A DNA stretch of 64,000 bases from Eucommia ulmoides (taxonomy: Eukaryota; Streptophyta; Magnoliopsida; Garryales; Eucommiaceae), in NCBI GenBank assembly GCA_016647705.1, contig JAENRU010000488.1:499501-563500 (forward strand), in the 5' to 3' direction. The first letter of the stretch is position 1. The number at the start of each line of letters is the position of its first letter. Positions 1,981-51,189 of this stretch are shown here, piece by piece. Made by a program: the position numbers and the translations under genes. Under the pieces are notes generated by a model. The model was not told where the DNA came from, made no database searches, and saw only the letters and a program-made list of their open reading frames with translations.

Positions 1981-4412
1981 GGGTGGGTGGGTGGGTTGAA
2001 TTAGTGAAGATGGAAAAGAGAAATCTGAAATGGTCTATTGTTCAAAGGGTTGAACAATATTGCAAGGAACTTAGTCTTTAGAGTATATAATATAGTGTAG
2101 ATATATTAAGGGATGAAGTCAAGTTGAGATCTTGTAATGCTCCTTGTGTTTTCTTTGGGGTTGATTGTAATGCTCCTTTTGAGTATTTGGTGTGTTTGTA
2201 GAGGGACTTGTTGAGTCTTGCGGACTACATTGCTAGTTCGTATGATTAATAACAAGGGAAACTCTTTCCCTTATTAATATATAATATAAATTGCCTTAAA
2301 AAAAACTGTTAGTTTCAAACTTATTGGGTTAGATTGCACCCCCTCAATTATGCCATAATTTTTAATTTTTAGTCCTTACAAGTACAAGTTTTTGTCTAAT
2401 TGGCCCTCCAAATTGTGTTATAGGTTTCAATTGTCAAACTTTTTTAATCCTACTTTTTTGTGTTTTAATGGTGATTCATAGGTCCATACTGTATACCAAG
2501 GTATCCCTACCTCATTTTCTATTTTTAACAAAACTCTCATTTCATTATTAGATAATATTTTTTGTTAAAAAAAAAAATTAAAAAAATCACTGTTGTCGCT
2601 ACCATCACCTACCACCGTCATTGCCACAAAAAAACATTACAACCACAACAAATTTTTTAAAAAAAAAATATATATGTATTTATTCTAATATAAAAAAAAA
2701 TAGAATCTAATTTTTTATAATTTTTTTGGGTAAGCGTTGTTTATATAAAATAAGAAGAAGGGTCTCTCTTACTACATAGTACAAGCATACCATGTAGTCC
2801 TCACACCAGAAAAAATTTATATTTTATGCACACTCACAAACCTAGAGAAGAGACTAATTGTCCAAAACAGGGGAACCCACTTATAGTGCCCACATCCTAG
2901 CACCAAACATGGGGTCCTTGGTTGAACACTACAAAATATAAGACACCCAATAATAGACAACGCATCTAACATTTTTTTTCAATAGACAAATATTATATAT
3001 AAAATGAGGGAAATGGTCTTTTTTACTACACGATAACAAGTTGTCGTGTAGCCTGCAAGACCCCAAACTAACAAAATACACCAATCATTTGCAGACAAGG
3101 ACCCAATGTTTAAGCCCAATTAGTGCCTATATCGTAGCACCGATCGTTCTTTATGCCCAAATTGGCCAATCAAAATAAACAAGTTACACATCAAAATTAT
3201 AAACAATAGCTAAACAACATATCTAAACAATATGGGGGTGGGTGGGTTGAATTATTGAAGATGGAAAAGAGGAGTGAAATGGTCTATTGTCGAAAGGGTT
3301 GAACAATATTGTAAAACTTAGTCTTGAGAGTATATAATATTAGTGTACGGGGCTGAAGTCAAGTAGAAAGAATGAAAAGGAGGAGCCCACACGGACATGG
3401 AAACTTGTTGAGGAACATGTAATTCACGTTTTTACTGTTGTTTTCAAAGTATGCAATGTCTACCATCAATTCGGTGGTCGGTAGTGTTTTGGGTAAGATT
3501 TACGGGTGTTTTATAAATATTTTGGAAGATCTTATAATGCTCCTTGTGTTTTCTTTGGAGTTGATTGTAATGTTCCTTTTGAGTATTTGGTGTGTTTGTA
3601 AAGGGATCTATTGTGTCTTGCGGGCTACATAGTTAGTCCGTAAGATTGATAGCAACAGAGACTCTTCCCCTTTTATTAATATATAATATAAATTGCCTAT
3701 AAAAAAAATGTTGTTTTCAAACTTATTGGGTTAGATTACATATTGATCCCTCAATGCCAAAAATTTTAGTTTTTAGTCCTTAAAAGAACAAGTTTTTGTC
3801 TAATTGGCTCTCAACTTGTGTTATAGGTTTCAACTATTAAACTTTTTTTAATCTTACTATTCTTTATTTTAATAGTGATTCAAAAGTCCATGCCGTGTAT
3901 ATCAAGGTATCCCTACCACATTTTCTATTTTTAAAGAAACTTTCGTTTCATTATTAGATAATATATTTTGCTAAAAAATTCTCAATTATTTTCTGTCACA
4001 TAAAAAATCAAGGCCGTCGACCATTGCCTACCACCGCCACTTCCACAAAAAAACATTACAACCACAACTAATTTTTTGAAAAAAAAATATATATGTATTC
4101 GTTCTAATATAAAATAAAAAATTATAATCTAATTATTCATAAAAAATAAAAATAAAATAAAAATTGGTGAGTATTATTTATATAAAATAAGGGAAAGGGT
4201 CTCCCTTACTACACGGTACAAGCATACCATATCATTCGCAAACCACACAAAATATATAGTTTATACATAGCCACAAACCCAAGGGAGAGACTAATTGTCC
4301 AAAATAGGGGAATCCACCTAGTACCAACATCCTAGCACCAAACATCGGGTCCTTGAGTCGAACACTACAAAATATAAGACACCCCTAATAATAGACACCA
4401 CATCTAACATTT
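1981..4412. repeat. 1.25-kb tandem duplication upstream of gene copy 1
   Basis: The block at 1981-3230 recurs at 3232-4412, offset by about 1251 bp. Matching landmarks in order: the ggtgggttgaatta block (1990 and 3241), gaacaatatt (2053 and 3301), the ctccttgtgttttctttgg stretch (2140 and 3541), and the block naming cctagcaccaaacat (2896 and 4331). Units have drifted by substitutions and small indels. The inner part (gccataatttttaatttttagtcc, 2353 onward) also occurs upstream of gene copy 2 near 18880, so the internal doubling happened only in copy 1 or was lost in copy 2. No gene is seen here; short open frames are not supported. Confidence 0.8.
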
Positions 4413-4711
4413 ATTGAACACCAAACAAGATAAAAATCAACTCCCAAAAGGCAGATGATTCAGATGCAAAATCCTAGCACAAACCAATGTTGTTGTCGAA
4501 TTTCTACTATTCTCTCTTTCTTCGAAAGATTGGGAAAATTCTCTTACTGGTGTTTTCTCTGGATAAATTTACCTCTTTTTTTTTTCGATAGGCTCCTGAT
4601 AAACTTACCTTTGTGTCTAGAAAAGGCACATATTATACATTTCTTCATGTAGCTCGCAAGATCCCAATCAACTGTCCATACACACCACCTTAAAATCCAC
4701 CAATGTTTTTA
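4413..4711. other. AT-rich spacer, no gene seen
   Basis: Short stretch between the duplicated upstream block and the LINE remnant. A 65-codon open frame at 4455-4652 is Phe/Leu/Cys-rich, resembles nothing I know and is not called. Words such as tgtagctcgcaagatccca echo 3044-3066, so part of it belongs to the same dispersed repeat as 3000-3200. Confidence 0.5.
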
Positions 4712-4786
4712 TTTTTTATTTTTTATAAGCAAAGTTATATTCAATAGGGAAAACCCCGGGCTACATAGTAGCAATACAATGAAACG

Positions 4787-16065: not shown

Positions 16066-17325
16066 TTAGAAGAGCTTGCTTGATCCACTTGGTAAACTAG
16101 AGTTGGCATCATCCCTCATTTGTGAAAGACTCCTCCCAAGTTGCAGAGCCACCTTCATCTCAAACAACTCTCCATTCTCTCTCCTCTCATACTCTCTCTC
16201 CTCCAAATTTGACTCTATGAACTCCTCCATGAACATAAAGAACCCTGCATTCCCTCTATACATCTCCACCACCATCCCCACCTGCCCACCATGCTCCAGT
16301 GTGTTGACTGCACTTGCTAGGGCCCCACCGGCCACCCCCAGAACGGTAGCCCACCACCCTCCAAACCCTAAAAGGGCCGATCCAACGGCTGCAAGGCCAG
16401 TTAGGGTTGGACCAGCAACGGCCAAGATCTTGTTAAGCCTCATTTTATCCTCACCCAACCTCAAGTTGCCTTCTTTATCACTCTTTATAACCCTAACCAT
16501 CTCCCTCAATTCCTCCTCCAACTTCAAATTCCAACCATTTTTTCCACTTTCCAAATTTACCCTTTTTGCCTTTTTCCGATCTTGTTTAGGCCACCAAACC
16601 GCGGGCTCCAATTTCGCTGGAAATTTTTCGAGCATAACGCCAATTAGGGGCAGCGGGTAGGCCTTGTCTAGGGCCAAAACCCTCTCTATTGCTTCATTCA
16701 CATCGCTCTCGGAAGGGTAGTTTTGGTATTTCCTGCTCAATAACGAGGTTTTGATTTGTTCATGCAATTGATTGAACAATCTAGAGGCATTCCTTTGCTC
16801 CTCAACAAGTTGGGATGGTTGGATCTTGTTCATGACCACAAGCATCCCAGTGGCTGCCATGTACAAGATTGTAGAGGAGAGTTTTAGGGCAAGTGTAGAG
16901 GATCCGGCACCGGCGCCGGTAGTCGCGGCAATCCCTGCAATTGTAGCTGCAAAGAGAGTGATTGTGTTGATAGATGTCAAGAGGAGGGTATTCCAGTTGT
17001 TCCTTTGCTCTCCAATGTTCCTGTGAATCTCAACCCTATCTCCAATCACCTCCAAAATTGCATACATTTTTTCCAAAACCAAAGGGTCTGGAAAATTCAG
17101 GTCCTTGTTTGCAAAAATGGATTTTTTCTCAATTGGTTTGTAAGTTCCATTTGAGTACAAGTGATCAAATGAAGGTTGTATGGAGATAGAATTGGTTGGC
17201 CGGAGCTTTGGGAAGTAGTTGTTGCCGGTGGCCAAAACAAGCCCTCTTGATGATCTCCGGTTGATCATGGAAGAACAAAAACCGGGTTTCGAGGTAGAAA
17301 AACTTGAAGATTGAATCACTGCCAT
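16066..17325 (-). CDS. At4g22030-like plastid-targeted membrane protein, tandem copy 2
   Basis: Single-exon gene of 419 residues, the paralogue of 572-1831, with which it shares length, start and stop with no indel. I count 24 residue differences (about 94% identity), among them V/A and V/G in the last hydrophobic segment and R363M/Y364... near the C-terminus, where this copy reads GFFMFMEEF. The transit-like N-terminus (1-50), NIGEQRNNWNTLL block, two hydrophobic regions (about 113-166 and 299-344) and C-terminal RRENGELFEMKVALQLGRSL are all kept. The preserved frame suggests both copies stay under selection, or that the duplication is young. A TATA-like run lies about 130 bp upstream (17453-17466). 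Homology extends upstream to about 19012, interrupted by a TIR element. Function unknown; plastid membrane location inferred. Confidence 0.88.
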   Translation of the reverse strand: MAVIQSSSFSTSKPGFCSSMINRRSSRGLVLATGNNYFPKLRPTNSISIQPSFDHLYSNGTYKPIEKKSIFANKDLNFPDPLVLEKMYAILEVIGDRVEIHRNIGEQRNNWNTLLLTSINTITLFAATIAGIAATTGAGAGSSTLALKLSSTILYMAATGMLVVMNKIQPSQLVEEQRNASRLFNQLHEQIKTSLLSRKYQNYPSESDVNEAIERVLALDKAYPLPLIGVMLEKFPAKLEPAVWWPKQDRKKAKRVNLESGKNGWNLKLEEELREMVRVIKSDKEGNLRLGEDKMRLNKILAVAGPTLTGLAAVGSALLGFGGWWATVLGVAGGALASAVNTLEHGGQVGMVVEMYRGNAGFFMFMEEFIESNLEEREYERRENGELFEMKVALQLGRSLSQMRDDANSSLPSGSSKLF

Positions 17326-17636
17326 GATCCTCTTCTTGTTTTCTTTAGGGTATAAAAAAAATGTTGGGTTTTTATTGTTTAAAGAGAGAGAGAGAGTTTG
17401 TGTTTTGTTTGTAGATTTAGAATTTTGATATATGGGTTTTGAAGGTGTTTATGATATATATATATGGGCTGGGGTGGGGTGGGGTGGGGTGCGGGGTGGG
17501 GGGGTGTTTGAATTAGTGAAGATGGAAAAGAGAAGACCGAAATGGTCTGTTGTTCAAAGGGTTGAACAAGTAAGGACTGGCTAGCTAAGAAGTAGTCTTG
17601 AGAGAATATATTAAGAGCGTGTGTGTGTGTGCGCGC

Positions 17637-19012: not shown

Positions 19013-19766
19013 TTAGGGTATGTTTGATAAAAAAAATTAAGTACTTAATACTGATTAAATTAAGTACTTAATTAATTAAGTGTGTTTGACAAATATAATA
19101 AAAATTATTTAATTAATTAAGTTAACTTAAAAATTAAGTGAAATATTAAGTAAAAAATTCAGTAAAACCTCCCTTACTTATTTTTTTTTTTTAGAAAGCG
19201 TTCCGCACTTTTCAAATTAAAAAAAAAAAAAAGGAATTGACCGTTTTGCCCTTAGGATTGCAGGGTTCTGTTGTTCTGTTCATTCAATGGTCTTTCTCGT
19301 TTTCATTTTCCAAAACAGCGAGCTGAGGCGATGGAGGCAGCGGTCGATCGATCGAGAGGTGACGATATCAATCGATCTTTGTTGAGTAGATAAGAGGCGA
19401 CGATCGATCAATCTTCGTTGAGGCGATGGAGGCAGCGAGCTGAGGCAATGGAGGCGGCGATCAAGATTTTTGTTTTTCGTTCAGATTTTTGTTTTTCTGT
19501 TCTTCAACAAATTTCTATTTTTCGTTTAAATTTCGTTCAAATTTCTGCAAATCTGAAATTTATGTTTTATAGTTTGGAGTGTTTTAACTGAGATTAGAAA
19601 ATCACGATTATTCATCCGATGAAACCCTAATTCTTGGAGAAATTTTTTGTTGATTCACTGAAGTTCGCAATCGCCTTGGTTAAATTCTCTTCCGTCAGCC
19701 TTTGATTTTGTCATTGCAACTCTAAATCGAATACGATTGACGTTTCTCACAACTCAAATCCCAGCC

Positions 19767-19809
19767 ATGGATGCACAGATAACTTTGCTAGATGAACTCA
19801 TGGGCTCTG
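19767..19809 (+). pseudogene. LUC7-like gene fragment, first coding exon
   Basis: Reads MDAQITLLDELMGS, close to the start MDAQ.xLLDELMG of the plant LUC7-like protein of the At5g51410 type, a U1 snRNP-associated zinc-finger protein that helps 5' splice-site choice. It ends at a plausible donor (ctctg|gtact). About 150 bp of leader-like sequence precedes it. A captured fragment, not a gene: later exons are damaged or missing. Confidence 0.7.
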
Positions 19810-20094
19810 GTACTTCTACTAAAACCTATGTACTAATCTTTATACGCTCTTGTCGAACTCAAACTTCATATCAGATATTCATCTGCTGGTTTTTTTTTTT
19901 TTGGCGTGATTTTTATATACTTGGGTTCATACTCCATAGCTTTAAGGAATGCATAGCTTTTGATTTTAGTTATGGTGCTTCTTATTTGGAATGAATTTGT
20001 TTGAAGATAATGGCTCCCATTGCCATTATTTGTTCATGTCATTTTACTCCATCAAGAGGTTCAACTAACGAATTTTGGCTTTGAATTTGCTTGA

Positions 20095-20216
20095 AATCTT
20101 ACCAAAGAAAAGAGGAAAGGCTACAAGAAAATCAAATGGGATGATAGGGAAGTATGTGGATTACATGGTTCGATTTTGTCGTCATGATCTTTTCGTGAAC
20201 ACTTGGAGTAATCTAG
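20095..20216 (+). pseudogene. LUC7-like gene fragment, zinc-finger exon, frameshifted
   Basis: The first part reads NLTKEKRKGYKKIKWDDREVCG in one frame (positions 20095-20160). The second reads YMVRFCRHDLFVNTWSNLG in another (20161-20216). Together they follow the LUC7 N-terminal block in which a Cys of 'EVCG' and Cys-x-His of 'FCPHDLF' begin the first CCCH-type finger. Here Pro of CPHD is Arg. One frameshift between the two parts shows that the fragment is not translated as LUC7. The exon ends at a possible donor (ctag|gtgtg). Confidence 0.75.
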
Positions 20217-20515
20217 GTGTGTTTTTGTTGGGTTTCTTCCTGTTTAATTCATGGGCTTTGGTTTTGTACAATATGTGGACCGATTTACGTTTATATATGC
20301 ATACGGATTGTTTTCCACCATTAGATCACATTTTGTTATCATTTTTGTTTTTGTTCCCATAAATATAGGAACAAAAAAAATTGTTTATTTTCTATCGTTT
20401 TTGGTTATGTTTGACATATGAAATTGATTATTTCGGTCTCACTATTTCTCCAGTGTGTGTTAGGATGAGTCTGACCTTGTGCTTCGTTGTCCTTTCTTAT
20501 ATTTATGTTATGCAG

Positions 20516-20617
20516 TAGAGGGTGGACTTACGATCGAAGGCGATCTCCCCCGCGCTATGGGAGATCTCGATCACGCAGCCCGGATAACTACCCTTCGAAG
20601 AGAAGGGAACCATCAAG
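20516..20617 (+). pseudogene. LUC7-like gene fragment, RS-domain exon
   Basis: Preceded by an acceptor (ttatgcag) and followed by a donor (catcaag|gtatgt). Reads RGWTYDRRRSPPRYGRSRSR then SPDNYPSKRREPSR, an arginine-serine domain like the C-terminus of plant LUC7-like proteins. The open frame and intact splice sites suggest either recent capture or no time to decay; the middle exons between it and the zinc-finger exon are absent. Confidence 0.65.
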
Positions 20618-20723
20618 GTATGTGATGTTGTCTTGTTACTCTGATTTTGATGTCATTAGGGTGTATGACTATTTATATGTTAATTAAATTTCTCTTTCTT
20701 TCTGTTGAGTTTATGCATCTCTC

Positions 20724-20905
20724 TTTACTTTGATATGGGGTTGTATGCAGTTTTTCTTTCACCAATAACATTCTTAATTGTATGTTCCTTTTACTCTGAT
20801 ATGGGGTTGTATGCAGTTTTTAATTGTATGTTTCTTTTACTCTGATATGGGGTTGTATGCAGTTTTTCTTTCACCAATAATATTCTTAATTATATGTTCC
20901 TTTTG
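20724..20905. repeat. Tandem repeats in captured intron, each with a splice-acceptor-like end
   Basis: Three units share 'tgatatggggttgtatgcag' (20731-20750, and again about 20797-20816 and 20844-20863), followed by tttttctttcaccaataa in the first and third. Period about 65, then 47. Each unit ends in a polypyrimidine-to-tgcag sequence. Confidence 0.85.
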
Positions 20906-21082
20906 TTAGGGGCATGGCATTACTGATTTCTTCCTCACACGCTATTGATCATATGGACTACCAGATGACACCCTTTCTATGTTCTGCTACGAATTGTATT
21001 CCTCATGTATATTTCCTCTATTTTGCCGTGCCTATCATGTTTGGATTATAGATCATAAACTTGCTTCGATTTTGCATTACAG

Positions 21083-21139
21083 GAAGATCATCATCTCGAT
21101 CTTTTCATTATGCGCCTCGCAAACACTCTCCATCACCAG
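21083..21139 (+). pseudogene. LUC7-like gene fragment, second RS exon
   Basis: Between an acceptor (cattacag) and a donor (caccag|gtatca), one frame reads GRSSSRSFHYAPRKHSPSP, again RS-rich. Its phase does not match the end of the previous exon (20617), so at least one exon or part was lost in between. Confidence 0.55.
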
Positions 21140-22066
21140 GTATCATTTACGTCAGTGTTATGAATTTTGGAAATTCACCAATATTCATCTAGGTTGCATT
21201 TGGATGGCTGAATTTGAAATGAATGGATTTACCTTTAAAAATTATAACTTGAATTTAAACTTTGAAATCGTTTCCATTTCGTTTTCAATTGTTATGTCTT
21301 TTTTAAACTCTGAAATTACCCTGTTGTTTAGTTCCTACATTGTCGTAATCAAATTACATTCATACATCAATATCAAATTTTTGAAATGATGTTTTTATTC
21401 ATCTCGTCTAATGGTTTATTAAGGGTTTTGAGACATTAATGACTGGCTTTGAACACTTATTACAACAATCGTAAACGCTTTCCTTTGTAGTTTATGATGA
21501 TATTTTTTTTGTTCTAAAATTTTTAGATAATTATTAGGACAATTGATGAAAATGATTGTGATCAGATTCTTCCCCACGAGGATGATATTGATAACAGACT
21601 CCAATCATCGAACGACTTGGACTTGAACGTCTAGCAGGATAATCACAACCCTAAATCTTCAGATTCTAGAATGTTGATTTCAATCAAACTAGTAGTAGAA
21701 ATTGTTGAATATTGTGGTTGTAATCAGATGGTCCCGTTTCGGTCCAATCTAATTGGTTAGATGATAAACAGATCAAATATGTATTAAACTTTAACCAATC
21801 TGTTGAATTTTATGTTATTGTTGACTTGTGATAATTTATATATTTAAACTTTTTAGAGTATTATTGATATTTTTATTTTATTGTTTTGTTCATCATCATC
21901 TTGATTCAAGGGTAGTTTTGTAAATTAACTAATTTTCAGCATTTAAATTTTATAATTATCAAACAAACAAAAAAAAATCAGCACTTAATTTTCAACATAA
22001 TTTTATCAAATCACCTACGTAAATTGTCAGCACTTAAAAATTAAGTCGTTATCAAACAAGCCCTAA

Positions 22067-28275: not shown

Positions 28276-29190
28276 TGTTGAAACAAATGAATTTTAATTA
28301 AATTTTTAGAATAGAAAGTGTCAAATGTGCAATTTCCTCTAACCCTTTTATCCCACATTGGTTGGGAGATGTGAAATTAATGAGGATATCTAGGGGTATG
28401 TGAGACACTTGAGGTGTGCCCCAAGGGGTACCCACATTTTGTGGAGGGGAGAGGAGTTACATCCCTACCGGTTTACCACACACGCGCGCGCCGCCGCCGC
28501 CGTCCGTCCGGCCGGGCCGGGCCGGGCCGAGTCTCGCGTGTGATGAGGTGGCACTTATTTACTTTTTAGAAAAAATTTATTTAAAAAATATTTTTTTTAA
28601 AACAGTTTAATTAAAAAATTAAAAACGTTTTTGAACCATTAAAATAAAAATAAAAACGTTTTTGAACCGTTAAAATAAAAAAAAAATGTTTTAATTTATT
28701 AAAACCGTTTAACGTTTTAATAAAAACGTTTAAAATAATAATTAAATTATTTAAACGTTTTTTTTTTTTAATTTCGGTTTCAAAAATTCAAACGGTTTAG
28801 TTTTTATTTTCTCCTATAAATAATGCTTTCTTCCTCAGTTTTATAAACACAGAATAGTCTTCATCTTGATCTGAAACAGTAAAAGAAAATTGCTTTCAAT
28901 CTACTTCTTCATCAGAAATAGTTTTATTTCTTTTCAACTTCGATTTTCGAGCAGTCTGTTTGTTTGTTCAAACAGTGAGTGGGTGTTTAGTATTCAGACC
29001 TTCTGTTGTACAAAGAAGGTTCTAGACAGAGGTGATTCTGGACTGTTTTATCCTGAGGACGACGGGGTTGTTACACTGCTTGCACGTTCTTGGGCAGAGC
29101 CGCGAAACGTCTTAAAGAGAGCAACCTGGTCCGCGACTCATCCCAAGAAATTTTGGTAAACTCGTTCTTTATTTGTTTTCTGTTTCAACA
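28276..29190 (+). repeat. 5' LTR of the copia element
   Basis: 915 bp, TG...CA. Contains a CG-rich patch (about 28490-28545) that differs in copy number between the LTRs, and a TATA-like ctataaataatgc near 28815, the likely transcription start region. Confidence 0.88.
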
Positions 29191-29199
29191 ATTTTAAGA

Positions 29200-30160
29200 C
29201 GTCCAATATCTGCTAAGATGTCTACTGATCACGATTTTAAACAAGTAACTGTTGATCTCAACAAACCCTTTCGTTTCAAAGGGTTTCATTTTAAAAGATG
29301 GAGACAGAAAATGTTATTTTTTCTTACTATCGAAAAAGTAGCATATGTCTGTACAACCGAAAAACCTCAATTACCTCAAGTTCCTACAGACGCTCAGATT
29401 CAAGAAGTTAAGTCTTGGGAGGAAAATGATTTCCTTTGTAAGAATTTTATTCTTAATGGTATGTCTGATGATCTGTATGATTATTACTGCTCTAACAAAA
29501 CTGCAAAGGAAGTTTGGGATGCTCTTTCGAAGAAATACGACACTGAGGAGGTTGGAAGTAAAAAATATGTTGTTAGTCGGTATCTGAAATACCAAATGAT
29601 CGACGACAAATCAGTGGAAGTTCAGTCTCATGAACTTCAGAAAATCGCTCACGAAATAATTGTTGAAGGTATGTCCCTTGATGAACAATTTCAAGTTGCT
29701 ATTTTAATTGACAAATTACTCCCCTCTTGGAAAGATTTTACGAATACTCTGAGGCATAAAACTAAAGAGTTTTCTTTAGAAAGTTTGATCACTCGTCTTC
29801 GAATTGAGGAGGAGACCCGAAAACAATATCAGAAAGATGAAGTGTTTGTTGTTTCTAACAACGCTCACAAAAAATCATCTTACGCTATTCTGAAACCTAA
29901 AGGAAAAAATATGAAAAATCAAAATCAGAATCGCAACCACAACAACCAGAACAGAAATGTGCATCAAAATCATAATAGAAACAAACTCCCTTCAAGAAAT
30001 AATTCTGAACAGTTTACTTGTTATAACTGTGGGAAGGCGGGCCATTTGGCTCGGAACTGCCGGCAAAGACGTTGTCCTGTTCCACAGGAAAATCTTACCG
30101 CGGACCAACTTATAGCTATGATTTCTGAAATCAATATAGTTGGTGGATCCGAAGGGTGGT
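29200..30160 (+). other. gag region of the copia element
   Basis: Capsid-type protein of the fossil element. The UBN2-like part carries FRFKGFHFKRWRQKM near the start and LIDKLLPSWKDF in the middle. An Asn-rich linker follows, then one CCHC knuckle near the C-terminus. Confidence 0.85.
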
Positions 30161-33100
30161 AGGTAGACACTGATACTTCACGCTATGTCTGCTATGATCG
30201 TACCATGTTCAAGTCTTATTTTGAAAGTGAAGACAAGAAAGTGTTGTTGGGTGATTCCCACTCCACTATTGTTGCCGGTTCTAGTGAAGTGGAATTAAAG
30301 TTTACCTCTGGAAAGACAGTCATCCTTAAAGATGTTCTGCATACTCCAGAGATGAGAAAGAATTTGGTTTCGAGCTATCTTCTAAACAAGGCGGGGTTCA
30401 CTCAAACTATTGGGGCCGATTTGTACACCTTAACCAAAAATAATATTTTTGTTGGGAAGGGATATGCAACTGATGGAATGTTCAAACTGAATGTTGAAAT
30501 TAATAAAATTTCTTCTGCTGCTTACATGTTGTGTTCTTTTAATATTTGGCATGCTAGATTTTGTCATATTAACAAACGCATTATTAAAAACTTAAGCAAC
30601 TTAGAACTAATTCCTAAATTGTCTTTGAATGATTTTGAAAAATGTGAATTTTGTAGTCAAGCTAAAATTACTAAAACCCCTTATAAATCAGTAATTAGAG
30701 AATCTGAATCTCTTGACTTGATACATTCTGATATTTGTGAATTTGATGGAGTCTTGACTAGGAATGGTAAACGCTATTTTATTACATTCATAGATGATTG
30801 TTCTAATTTTACTTATGTTTATCTCATGAAAAATAAAAGTGAAGCTTTTGATATGTTTAAAAATTGTGTAACTGAGATTGAAAATCAATGCAATAAGAAA
30901 ATTAAGAGATTACGTAGTGATAGAGGAACAGAATATGATTCTGATATTTTTATTGATTTTTATAATTCTCATGAGATTATTCATAAAAAAACTGCACCGT
31001 ATTCTCCTGAAATGAATAGTAAGGCTAAAAGGAAAAATAGAACTTTTGTTGAATCAGTAGTTGCTATTTTACTTAACTCCGGTGTAGCTTCTCACTAGTG
31101 GGGTGAAATTTTATTAACGGTTTGCTATGTACTTAATAGAGTTCCCAAATCGAAAAGTAAAATTTCACCTTATGAAGTTTTCAAAAATAAGAAACCAAAT
31201 TTGTCTTATTTTAAAACTTGAGGTTGTTTGGCATATGTTCGAATTCCTGACCCAAAAAGAAGAAAACTTGTCAGTAGAGCTTATGAATGTGTTTTTATTG
31301 GTTATGCAGTAAATAGTAAAGCTTATAGATTTTATGATTTGAAAGATAGAGTTATCATTGAATCAAATGATGCTGATTTTTATGAATATAAATTTCCTTT
31401 CAAATTGAAGAATAATGGGGGCTCGACTTCTAGTAATGAACCTATCATTAGGATTAATTAATCTAATAAGAAATTAGATATTGAACCTAGAAGGAGTAAA
31501 CGACCTCGTATAGCTAAAGACTTTGGTTCGGATTTCTATGCATATACCTTAGAGGAGGATCCACTTACCCTCCAAGAGGCATTGTCTTCTATAGATGCCA
31601 ATTTATGGCAAGAGGCTATAGATGATGAGTTAGACTCTCTCGAGTCAAATAGAACTTGGCATTTGGTAGATTTACCTCCTGGTTGTAAAAAAATAGGATG
31701 TAAATGGATTCTTAAGAAGAAATTGAATCCTGATGGAACCATTGATAAATATAAGGTTCGTCTTGTAGCCAAATGGTTTAGACAAAGAGAGAATGTAGAT
31801 TTCTTTGATACTTTCTCACCTGTCTCTAGAATTACATCTATTCGTGTACTTTTATCTCTTGCTGCAATTCATAATCTTATTGTGCACCAAATGGATGTTA
31901 AAACTGCTTTTTTGAATGGTGAATTAGAAGAAGAGATTTATATGGACCAACCTGAAGGATTTGTTATTCCTAGTCAAGAAAACAAAGTATGCAAATTAGA
32001 TAAATCTCTTTATGGTTTGAAACAAGCACCTAAGCAATGGCATGAGAAATTTGATAATCTAGTCATTTCACATGGTTTTAAAGTAAATGAAAGTGACAAA
32101 TGCATTTACTATAAATCTGAAAATGATGTTTGCACTATTATATGTATTTATGTGGATGACTTGCTAATTTTTTGTTCCAATATTCATGTTGTGAATAATG
32201 TAAAATCCATGCTATGTGCTAATTTTGACATGAAAGATCTTGGTGAAGCAAGTGTAATCCTTGGTATTAAAATAACTAGGTCTAAATATAGAATTTCTTT
32301 GGATCAATCTCATTATATAGAGAAGATTCTAAAGAAATACAATTATTTTGATTGTAAACCAGCATGTACTCCTTATGACCCTAGTGTGAAGTTGTTCAAG
32401 AACACCGGTGATGGTGTTAGACAATCTGAGTATGCGAGCATCATAGGCAGTCTTTGATATGCCACTAATTGCACTAGGCCCGATATAGCGTATGCAGTTG
32501 GATTACTATGCAGGTTTACAAGCAGACCTAGTATTGAGCATTGGCATGCTATTGATAGGATTATAAAATATCTAAAGAGAACTATGAATCTTGGATTACA
32601 TTATCAGAAGTTTCCCGCTGTTCTGGAAGGATATAACGATACTGATTGGAACACCCTTTCAGATGACTCCAAGGCAACTAGTGGTTATATATTTAGTATA
32701 ACTGGTGGAGCTGTTTCTTGGAAATCTAAGAAACAGACTATTTTGGCTCAATCTACTATGGAGTCTGAGATGATTGCACTAGCTTCAGCTAGCGAGGAAG
32801 CAGGGTGGTTAAGGAGCCAGCTTTCTGATACCCCTTTATGGGAGAGACCGATTCCAGCTGTCCTGATCCATTGTGATAGTACCGCAGCTATTGCAAAGAT
32901 TCAGAACCGTTATTATAACGGAAAAAAATGACAAATACGTCGCAAACACAGCACTATTAGAGAGTATATCTCTACAGAGGCTGTGAGAGTGGATCATGTA
33001 CGGTCTGATGATAACTTAGCCGATCCTTTGACGAAAGAATTAGCTCGAGAAAAGGTTTACAAAACCTCGAAAGGAATGGGACTCAAGCCCATAGATTGAC

Positions 33101-49579: not shown

Positions 49580-51189
49580 TTAGGACATGTTTGATAATCA
49601 AATTCAGTACTTAAAATTTATTATATTAAGTACTTAAAATTTATTATATTAAGTACTTAGTTAATTAAGTTTGTTTGATAAATGAAATTAAGTTCACTTA
49701 ACAATTCAGTCAAAATTTAAGTAAAAAATTCAGCCAAGTCCTTAACTTAATTCATTCTGAAGAATGTGCATAGCAGATTGTATTTTCGCTCCCTCTTCAC
49801 TGTCTGATCTGCCAACATTGTATTAATAATAGTTTTTTATATTAGTTTGTAGTTTAAATTCAATTTTATCTGGGATTTTTTGAAGCTGCTTGTAATATTG
49901 GGGTTGATCTGTTTTCGCTTCTTTTTTTTTTTTTTTTTTTTTTGAGTCACCTGAAATCTGCAATCCATGTTTGAATTGATTTTGATTATACACATATACA
50001 TACATATATATGTGTGTACGCGCGCGCGAGCGCAAAATATACATCAAGGCTATCCAACTGAAACTCTGGTGAGGTTTCTTAAACTGGAGGATATAGAATG
50101 AGATCAACAATATATTAACGGTGAGTAAAAAAATATATATATTCTCGATTTTTTCTTGTATTATCTTGATAGAAAAATTAAATTCAACAGTTTTCAGTAT
50201 TCGAATTTTGTATTTATCAAACAAATAAAAAGTATATAGCACTTAAAATTTTAATTTTATCAAACAAATTTTTTATATTTTCAGCACTTAAAAATTAGGA
50301 TTTTTGAGAGAATAACTCATTTTTAGACAATAATTTAGAATGGCGCCATAAATCATGGCCCAATACATTAAAACACCTAACTATTATTTTTTATTCGAGA
50401 AAACCCCAAAAACAAAACACATTCGCTCCTACCCCAATTCCTTTTTCCTTTTTTCTCTCCCTCCAATGGGCCCCACTTCCCTCCCTCTCTCTCTCTTGTC
50501 TCTCTCTCAATCTCTCTTTATATCCTCTCCATTTTATTTTCTAACACTCTTTCCTCTCTCTCTCTCTATTCTCACTTTATTCTCTCTCTCACACACTCTC
50601 ACTCTCCATATATATATCTATTTCTTTATTTTTATTTTTTTCCTTTTTTGTTTGTTTTTTTTATGTTTTATATTTTTTCTTCTTCAAACTAAAATAAAAT
50701 AAATTATGTAAATTGCAATATGAAATTAAATTTTGTGAGGAAAACGGTCACTGTAACAACCTTCGTCTCTTCACCCACAAGCACCACCGTCGTACCGAAT
50801 GAAGTCCACCAAGTATACAGAACAAATGCAACCACCGTAGCACTGTTAGTAGATTCACAAAAAAAATTGATGAGCCGCAAATTTTCAAGAATTTTACTGT
50901 ACAATAACATTTTCACAAAATATTAATATACAGCAATTTTTCACAAAAATTACAGTGTAGCAACATTCTAAAGCACGAGTAATACTATCAATGCGTATAG
51001 AACCCTAATATTATTTTCAACAATCCAACAAAATGACTGAAATTAGCAAAACTAAATCAAAAGTTGAAAATTTTGAGAAATAAAATCCAAAATGTGCAAA
51101 TAAGATGCACATAATAGCAAATAACAAACCTCCACAATGGTATCATGTACATGAACACGGTATATTGAAAATCTTTTTTCTCAAAATTT

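Follow-up and report, generated by a model that had tools for sequence, protein, structure and literature searches.

In grapevine, the PIF element Pifvine-3 has captured exons together with introns, and it has been described with ORF1 and transposase regions (PMC2528002). Pack-PIF and other Pack-TYPE elements with cargo from several loci are known from maize and rice (PMC8903248). The cargo of Tgm-Express1 from soybean gives rise to a spliced chimeric RNA (PMC1947982).

The element analyzed here lies in a 64-kb stretch of Eucommia ulmoides DNA, which will be called the window. Like Pifvine-3, it belongs to a PIF family with a 3-bp target-site duplication, it contains host exons and introns, and its captures are common to several copies. 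In contrast to the described parts of Pifvine-3, no ORF1 and transposase regions were found in the window copy, and the cargo consists of LUC7, SCL33, protease, and CHCHD2 pieces (PMC2528002). The similarities to the maize and rice Pack-PIFs are the probably non-autonomous organization with TIRs, the mostly TTA/TAA flanks, and the multi-locus cargo, but the genomes and the TIR families are different, and in the maize Pack-PIF cluster depicted in that source the gene DNA amounts to no more than 163 and 58 bp, unlike in the element analyzed here (PMC8903248). Like Tgm-Express1, it carries fragments of several unrelated host genes in which exons and introns are usable, whereas Tgm-Express1, as outlined in the source, is a CACTA element of 5.7 kb that resides in a gene intron and is spliced into the RNA of this gene (PMC1947982). 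The TIR of AndroPIF from melon, GGGCCCGTTTG, follows the same GGGNNNGTTTG plan, but the pertinent part of the source describes no captured host genes for AndroPIF, unlike the situation in the window (PMC11161486). A LUC7-bearing transposon was not among the literature matches listed, and literature searches with the TIR strings and with the LUC7 N-terminal string gave no match. The process, gene capture by PIF and Pack-PIF elements, has been published, and the element itself is a new example, clear but ordinary.

We are highly confident that the locus is a PIF/Harbinger Pack-TYPE element of 3048 bp that carries sense fragments of four host genes, which would have been captured in a stepwise fashion. 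The features are compiled in Table 1.

Table 1. Features of the Pack-PIF element and of a second family member in the window
Feature	Position	Strand	Remarks
Pack-PIF element, whole	19016..22063	+	3048 bp; sister copy L010, flanks not shared
Left target-site triplet TTA	19013..19015	.	Site of identical triplets in 15 of 19 copies
Left terminal inverted repeat GGGTATGTTTGATAA	19016..19030	+	
LUC7 fragment: 5' leader, exon 1, intron 1, exon 2, start of intron 2	19602..20251	+	Donor on C12
LUC7 exon 1 (MDAQITLLDELMGS)	19767..19809	+	GT donor intact
LUC7 exon 2, start of first zinc finger	20090..20216	+	GT donor intact
SCL33-type SR gene fragment: 29 nt of RRM exon, intron, RS exon, start of next intron	20253..20663	+	
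SCL33 RS exon (RGWTYDRRRSPPRYGRSRSRSPDNYPSKRREPSR)	20516..20617	+	AG and GT intact; first RS exon of the initial annotation
Intron fragment of a papain-type (RD19-like) protease gene	20655..20968	+	46-bp tandem duplication inside; L023/C17
CHCHD2-like fragment: intron end, exon 2, start of next intron	21010..21259	+	L033/C17
CHCHD2-like exon 2 (GRSSSRSFHYAPRKHSPSP)	21083..21139	+	AG and GT intact; second RS exon of the initial annotation
Right subterminal region and terminal inverted repeat (TTATCAAACAAGCCC at 22049-22063)	21868..22063	+	
Right target-site triplet TAA	22064..22066	.	One base different from left TTA
Second, short family member	49583..50297	+	Left 156 columns 73.7%, right 123 columns 74.8%

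Ends, superfamily, and copies of the element

The region from 19016 to 22063 is a single mobile unit that is bounded by the inverted ends GGGNNNGTTTGATAA. When the ends were set to 19013 and 22066, 16 of the 18 end bases agreed after inversion. The motif TAGGGNNTGTTTGATAA occurs without mismatch and in facing orientation at exactly two sites in the window, which are the two ends of the element. Both ends were recognized in 19 of the 29 loci compared, including the window. Directly outside of GGG...CCC, the 3-bp flanks were identical in 15 of these 19 copies, compared to about 2% that would be expected by chance, as estimated from the base composition. The identical pairs comprised 14 cases of TTA or TAA and one case of TTG, and the four copies with unequal triplets were L015, L016, L028, and the window copy (TTA/TAA). 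The right end of L016 was probably misplaced, and it resembles a subterminal repeat. The initial annotation had proposed ends of the type TTAGGG...CCCTAA; their inverted nature was verified, but the outer TTA and TAA turned out to be target-site triplets and not parts of the repeats. The subterminal parts of the two ends, taken alone, are not significantly alike, as local alignment of the 200-bp ends yielded a score of 39, while shuffled sequences had a mean of 24.6 and a maximum of 48. The evidence for the ends comes from the terminal motif and from the copies, both of which are significant, unlike the subterminal parts alone.

The element is a member of the PIF/Harbinger superfamily of the Pack-TYPE sort (Pack-PIF), because the 3-bp flanks are mostly TTA/TAA and the TIRs follow the plan GGGNNNGTTTG, a form that is present at both ends of the window copy. 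The 3-bp TTA/TAA target-site duplication is a property of the family, although the two triplets of the window copy are not identical. As in other Pack-TYPE elements, host gene fragments lie between the TIRs, and their four donor genes are present in the genome. The transposase that mobilizes PIF/Harbinger elements is of the Harbinger type and acts with a Myb/SANT partner, while hAT elements have target-site duplications of 8 bp and MULEs of 9 bp. The TAGGG/CCCTA ends are hAT-like in appearance, but with the boundary set at TAGGG, 3 of 8 and 5 of 9 flanking bases agree, and the best 9-bp agreement over the four boundary choices tried was 6 of 9. Hence, neither the 8-bp duplication of a hAT element at the TAGGG boundary nor the 9-bp duplication of a Pack-MULE at the four boundaries was observed. 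The identical 3-bp flanks of the copies also argue against both types, and the assignment to hAT or MULE, which is most improbable, was ruled out by the length of the target-site duplication.

The genome (946.7 Mb in 391 contigs, with the window on contig C54) was searched with the region 19740-20220, which resulted in at least 15 matches at at least 14 places. The 14 places with a LUC7 block are the window, 11 copies with the left end of the element, and two LUC7 genes, of which that on C12 is the donor and that on C4 a paralogue. Analysis of the 13 other places that were fetched revealed the left end in all of the 11 copies (L010-L018, L020, L021), and in 9 of them the right region extended to position 3010 or beyond. 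Other loaded members, which the initial annotation had advised to look for, do exist, with 11 LUC7-bearing copies besides that in the window. The sister copy L010 is located on a different contig, is 95.7% identical over 3040 aligned columns, and has TTA/TTA outside of its ends. The divergence of its LUC7 piece from that of the window copy is 2.0%, gaps excluded, and the 500-bp flanks of the window copy have no matching stretch of at least 60 columns with L010.

The one-base difference between the flanking triplets of the window copy would also fit two separate TIR insertions on both sides of a degraded resident gene, which the initial annotation had named as the case that would overturn its reading. 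However, the whole unit is found on other contigs with matching triplets and in unrelated surroundings, as exemplified by L010 and L011, and self-comparison revealed one left end and one right end within the unit. Two separate insertions therefore have virtually no probability. In contrast, the proposal that a TIR transposon holds captured gene DNA is backed by the inverted ends, the sister copy, and the other copies.

The longest stop-to-stop ORF within the element has 146 codons (ORFs of at least 80 aa were considered), and the element is probably non-autonomous. Inside the element, the Pfam scan covered the LUC7 and RS peptides and a short 3' peptide. An open stretch at 21545-21635, which has an NDLDLNV end before the stop and is partly shared with L014 and L016, is perhaps an old ORF of the element; its only Pfam match was below the cut-off.

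The window contains further features. For the second, short family member, no match to the LUC7 part and no right tip were found. Two ORFs of 460 aa on the minus strand (572-1951 and 16066-17448) are of equal length and have look-alike stretches; they likely represent a duplicated Chloroplast_duf (PF14476) gene, as judged from a domain scan that covered the ORF at 572-1951. Copia-type gag and reverse transcriptase ORFs are present at 29116-32454, and thus a plant-type Chloroplast_duf gene and copia pieces occur in the same 64 kb.

Donor genes of the captured fragments

The joined LUC7 exons 1 and 2, with X at the stop and at the deletion, matched the Pfam LUC7 family with an E-value of 6.3e-18 and 65.9 bits (cut-off 33). 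Yeast Luc7 was a weak match among solved structures (E=0.0043), and scans of genome_contigs and viral_contigs with LUC7 peptides found nothing. The source of the piece is a LUC7 gene on C12 (L019) without element ends, in which exons 1, 2, and 3, the middle exons, the region for the second zinc finger, and a portion of the RE-rich tail were matched in order. The alignment of the element with this gene, including introns and leader, comprises 652 columns when gaps are counted, and 562 of the 620 aligned bases agree. Therefore, the parent gene that the initial annotation had advised to look for exists, and its view that the 5' part of a LUC7 gene was captured with introns is correct. The paralogous LUC7 gene on C4 (L009) was rejected as donor, because it matches the exons only (80-82%), whereas the C12 gene matches with introns. 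The divergence between the donor and the 12 LUC7-bearing copies is 8.1-11.3%, gaps excluded. In the window copy and the 11 other copies, the left breakpoint of the LUC7 piece is located at positions 3357-3405 of the donor stretch, while the right breakpoints vary from 3811 to 4241. Because the left breakpoint is nearly common and the right breakpoints differ, the pattern fits one capture that would have been followed by trimming. A further locus, L025, retains only 109 bp of the LUC7 piece.

The initial annotation had regarded two RS-rich blocks as additional exons of the same LUC7 gene. The first block is the most RS-rich of the 24,978 stop-free 30-residue windows in the 64 kb, and scans with the RS peptide gave no match in viral_contigs or among solved structures. 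It maps to a gene on C5 (L022), with identity at all 29 aligned bases in an RRM exon and at 359 of 381 aligned bases in the following intron and RS exon; 151 donor bases between the two matched parts are absent from the piece. The C5 gene encodes an RRM (Pfam 7.8e-8) and an RS tail, and we take it to be of the SCL33 type, a name fitted to the RRM match. The second block maps to a gene on C17 (L033, at about 12.25 Mb), with identity at 218 of 248 aligned bases. Later exons of this gene encode a CHCH domain (8.7e-11 with two joined exon pieces), and it is presumably CHCHD2-like, again a name fitted to the domain match.

These results bear on the possibility that a single LUC7 gene was captured with its introns, that middle exons were lost later, and that both RS exons stem from LUC7. 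LUC7 exons 1 and 2 indeed come first and in gene order, and the LUC7 genes of the genome do have an R-rich C-terminal tail. However, the RE/RS tails of the genes on C12 and C4 are different from both blocks, and the blocks match an SCL33-type gene, intron included, and a CHCHD2-like gene. The single-gene explanation, refuted here by the donor genes, is extremely improbable. Thus, the order of the first two exons was described correctly, but the other blocks come from other donors, and instead of lost exons of one captured gene there are four donor genes on three contigs, namely LUC7 (C12), SCL33-type (C5), papain-type protease (C17), and CHCHD2-like (C17). LUC7 exon 3 or later exons had no match inside the elements of the 29 loci (plus strand).

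The protease piece is situated between the two 'RS exons', i.e., between the SCL33 and CHCHD2 exons. Its alignments with L023 (C17, at about 1.0 Mb) had identities at 114 of 138 and 114 of 133 bases. The L023 gene encodes an I29 domain (Pfam 1e-16), and we assume it to be RD19-like, a name fitted to this match. The match is 83-86% identical and is confined to one intron, and the true donor may be a paralogue. A 46-bp tandem duplication comprises positions 20771-20862, where L011 and L012 seem to have a single unit, as judged from their alignments. L013, L015, and L018 carry a different piece of the protease gene, which was read as exon in L013, with a Pfam score of 16.8 bits that is below the cut-off of 20.7. 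In L012 (C3, at about 34.288 Mb), the SCL33 pieces have an SF3A1 (SURP) fragment between them (oriented 4108-4775), with Surp matches of 3.2e-6 and 1.3e-9 and, for the joined pieces, a match to the SF3A1 chain with E=4.4e-25. Both strands were searched, and each of the four pieces in the window has the sense orientation relative to its donor gene and to the other three pieces.

Damage of the LUC7 piece and probable order of capture

A CGA codon of the donor is replaced by TGA in exon 2 of all 10 copies that hold exon 2. Because this stop is common to the copies, the LUC7 piece was dead in their common ancestor. A 2-bp deletion is present in the window copy, L010, L011, and L012, the same four copies that contain the SCL33 piece. 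The acceptor of exon 2 is TTTG in the window copy and in L010, compared to TTAG in the donor gene. The GT donors have been kept after all four exon pieces, and of the internal exons, which number three, two still have an AG acceptor, LUC7 exon 2 being the exception. The initial annotation had noted intact splice sites and one frameshift: the splice sites are indeed partly intact, but the damage exceeds one frameshift and comprises the TGA, the 2-bp deletion, and the lost acceptor. In the fully spliced window copy, the frame would end at codon 16. Skipping of exon 2 would leave a frame of 67 residues open, but the SCL33 exon would not be read in its own frame. An ORF of LUC7 across both zinc fingers is absent because of the stop, the 2-bp deletion, the lost acceptor, and the lack of later exons. 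In line with the earlier view that this is not a working copy, the window element is no functional LUC7 copy and yields no LUC7 protein.

The four pieces differ in their frequencies and in their divergences from the donors. Among the 29 loci, including the window, the number with a match was 24 for the CHCHD2 piece, 17 for the protease piece, 13 for LUC7 (the window, 11 copies, and L025), and 4 for SCL33; these counts refer to matches of at least 50 columns on the plus strand, and they are not unbiased, as 17 of the 28 other loci had been picked by a match to the part after LUC7. The divergence, without gaps, is 14-17% for the protease piece, 12% for CHCHD2, 9% for LUC7, and 6% for SCL33. Because divergence and presence/absence run in the same direction, we infer that the protease and CHCHD2 pieces were captured first, LUC7 next, and SCL33 last, with the qualification for the divergence values that the donors differ in constraint. 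The addition of each piece would have involved DNA copying or repair, either in the course of transposition or afterwards. Where the SCL33 and protease pieces join, their matches have nine bases in common, as might be left by microhomology repair, which for one junction is only suggestive. The loaded element would then have been moved by a transposase supplied from elsewhere. If it is transcribed, the kept splice sites could yield short chimeric RNAs, which would most likely be functionless.

Possible RNA effects and implications

The twelve LUC7-bearing copies, with 8-11% divergence from the donor and partly kept splice sites, could be imagined as a source of small or chimeric RNAs that regulate the parent LUC7 or SCL33 gene. 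However, such a role seems very unlikely, because at this divergence long stretches that match the donor perfectly are few, and because all four pieces are in sense, so that antisense RNA would need a promoter facing in the opposite direction. It is also highly doubtful that the family is biased towards keeping sense fragments of splicing factors. When the fragment in L012 is included, three of the five donors are splicing genes (LUC7, SCL33-type SR, and SF3A1), and all five pieces have the sense orientation. If the bias were real, the captured exons might act as decoys or as chimeric RNAs that feed back on the host splicing machinery, or, alternatively, introns of splicing genes might be hot spots for PIF-mediated capture. 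The bias was dropped as a claim, because it was noticed after the fact, the donors are few, and LUC7 was preset by the finding.

Taken together, the locus offers a well-resolved case of what would be stepwise gene capture by a PIF element, with the donors, differently loaded copies, and common lesions in one genome, and the order of capture and the junctions are thereby open to study. It is also a warning that the cargo of a transposon may look like a single gene and yet be pieced together from several.
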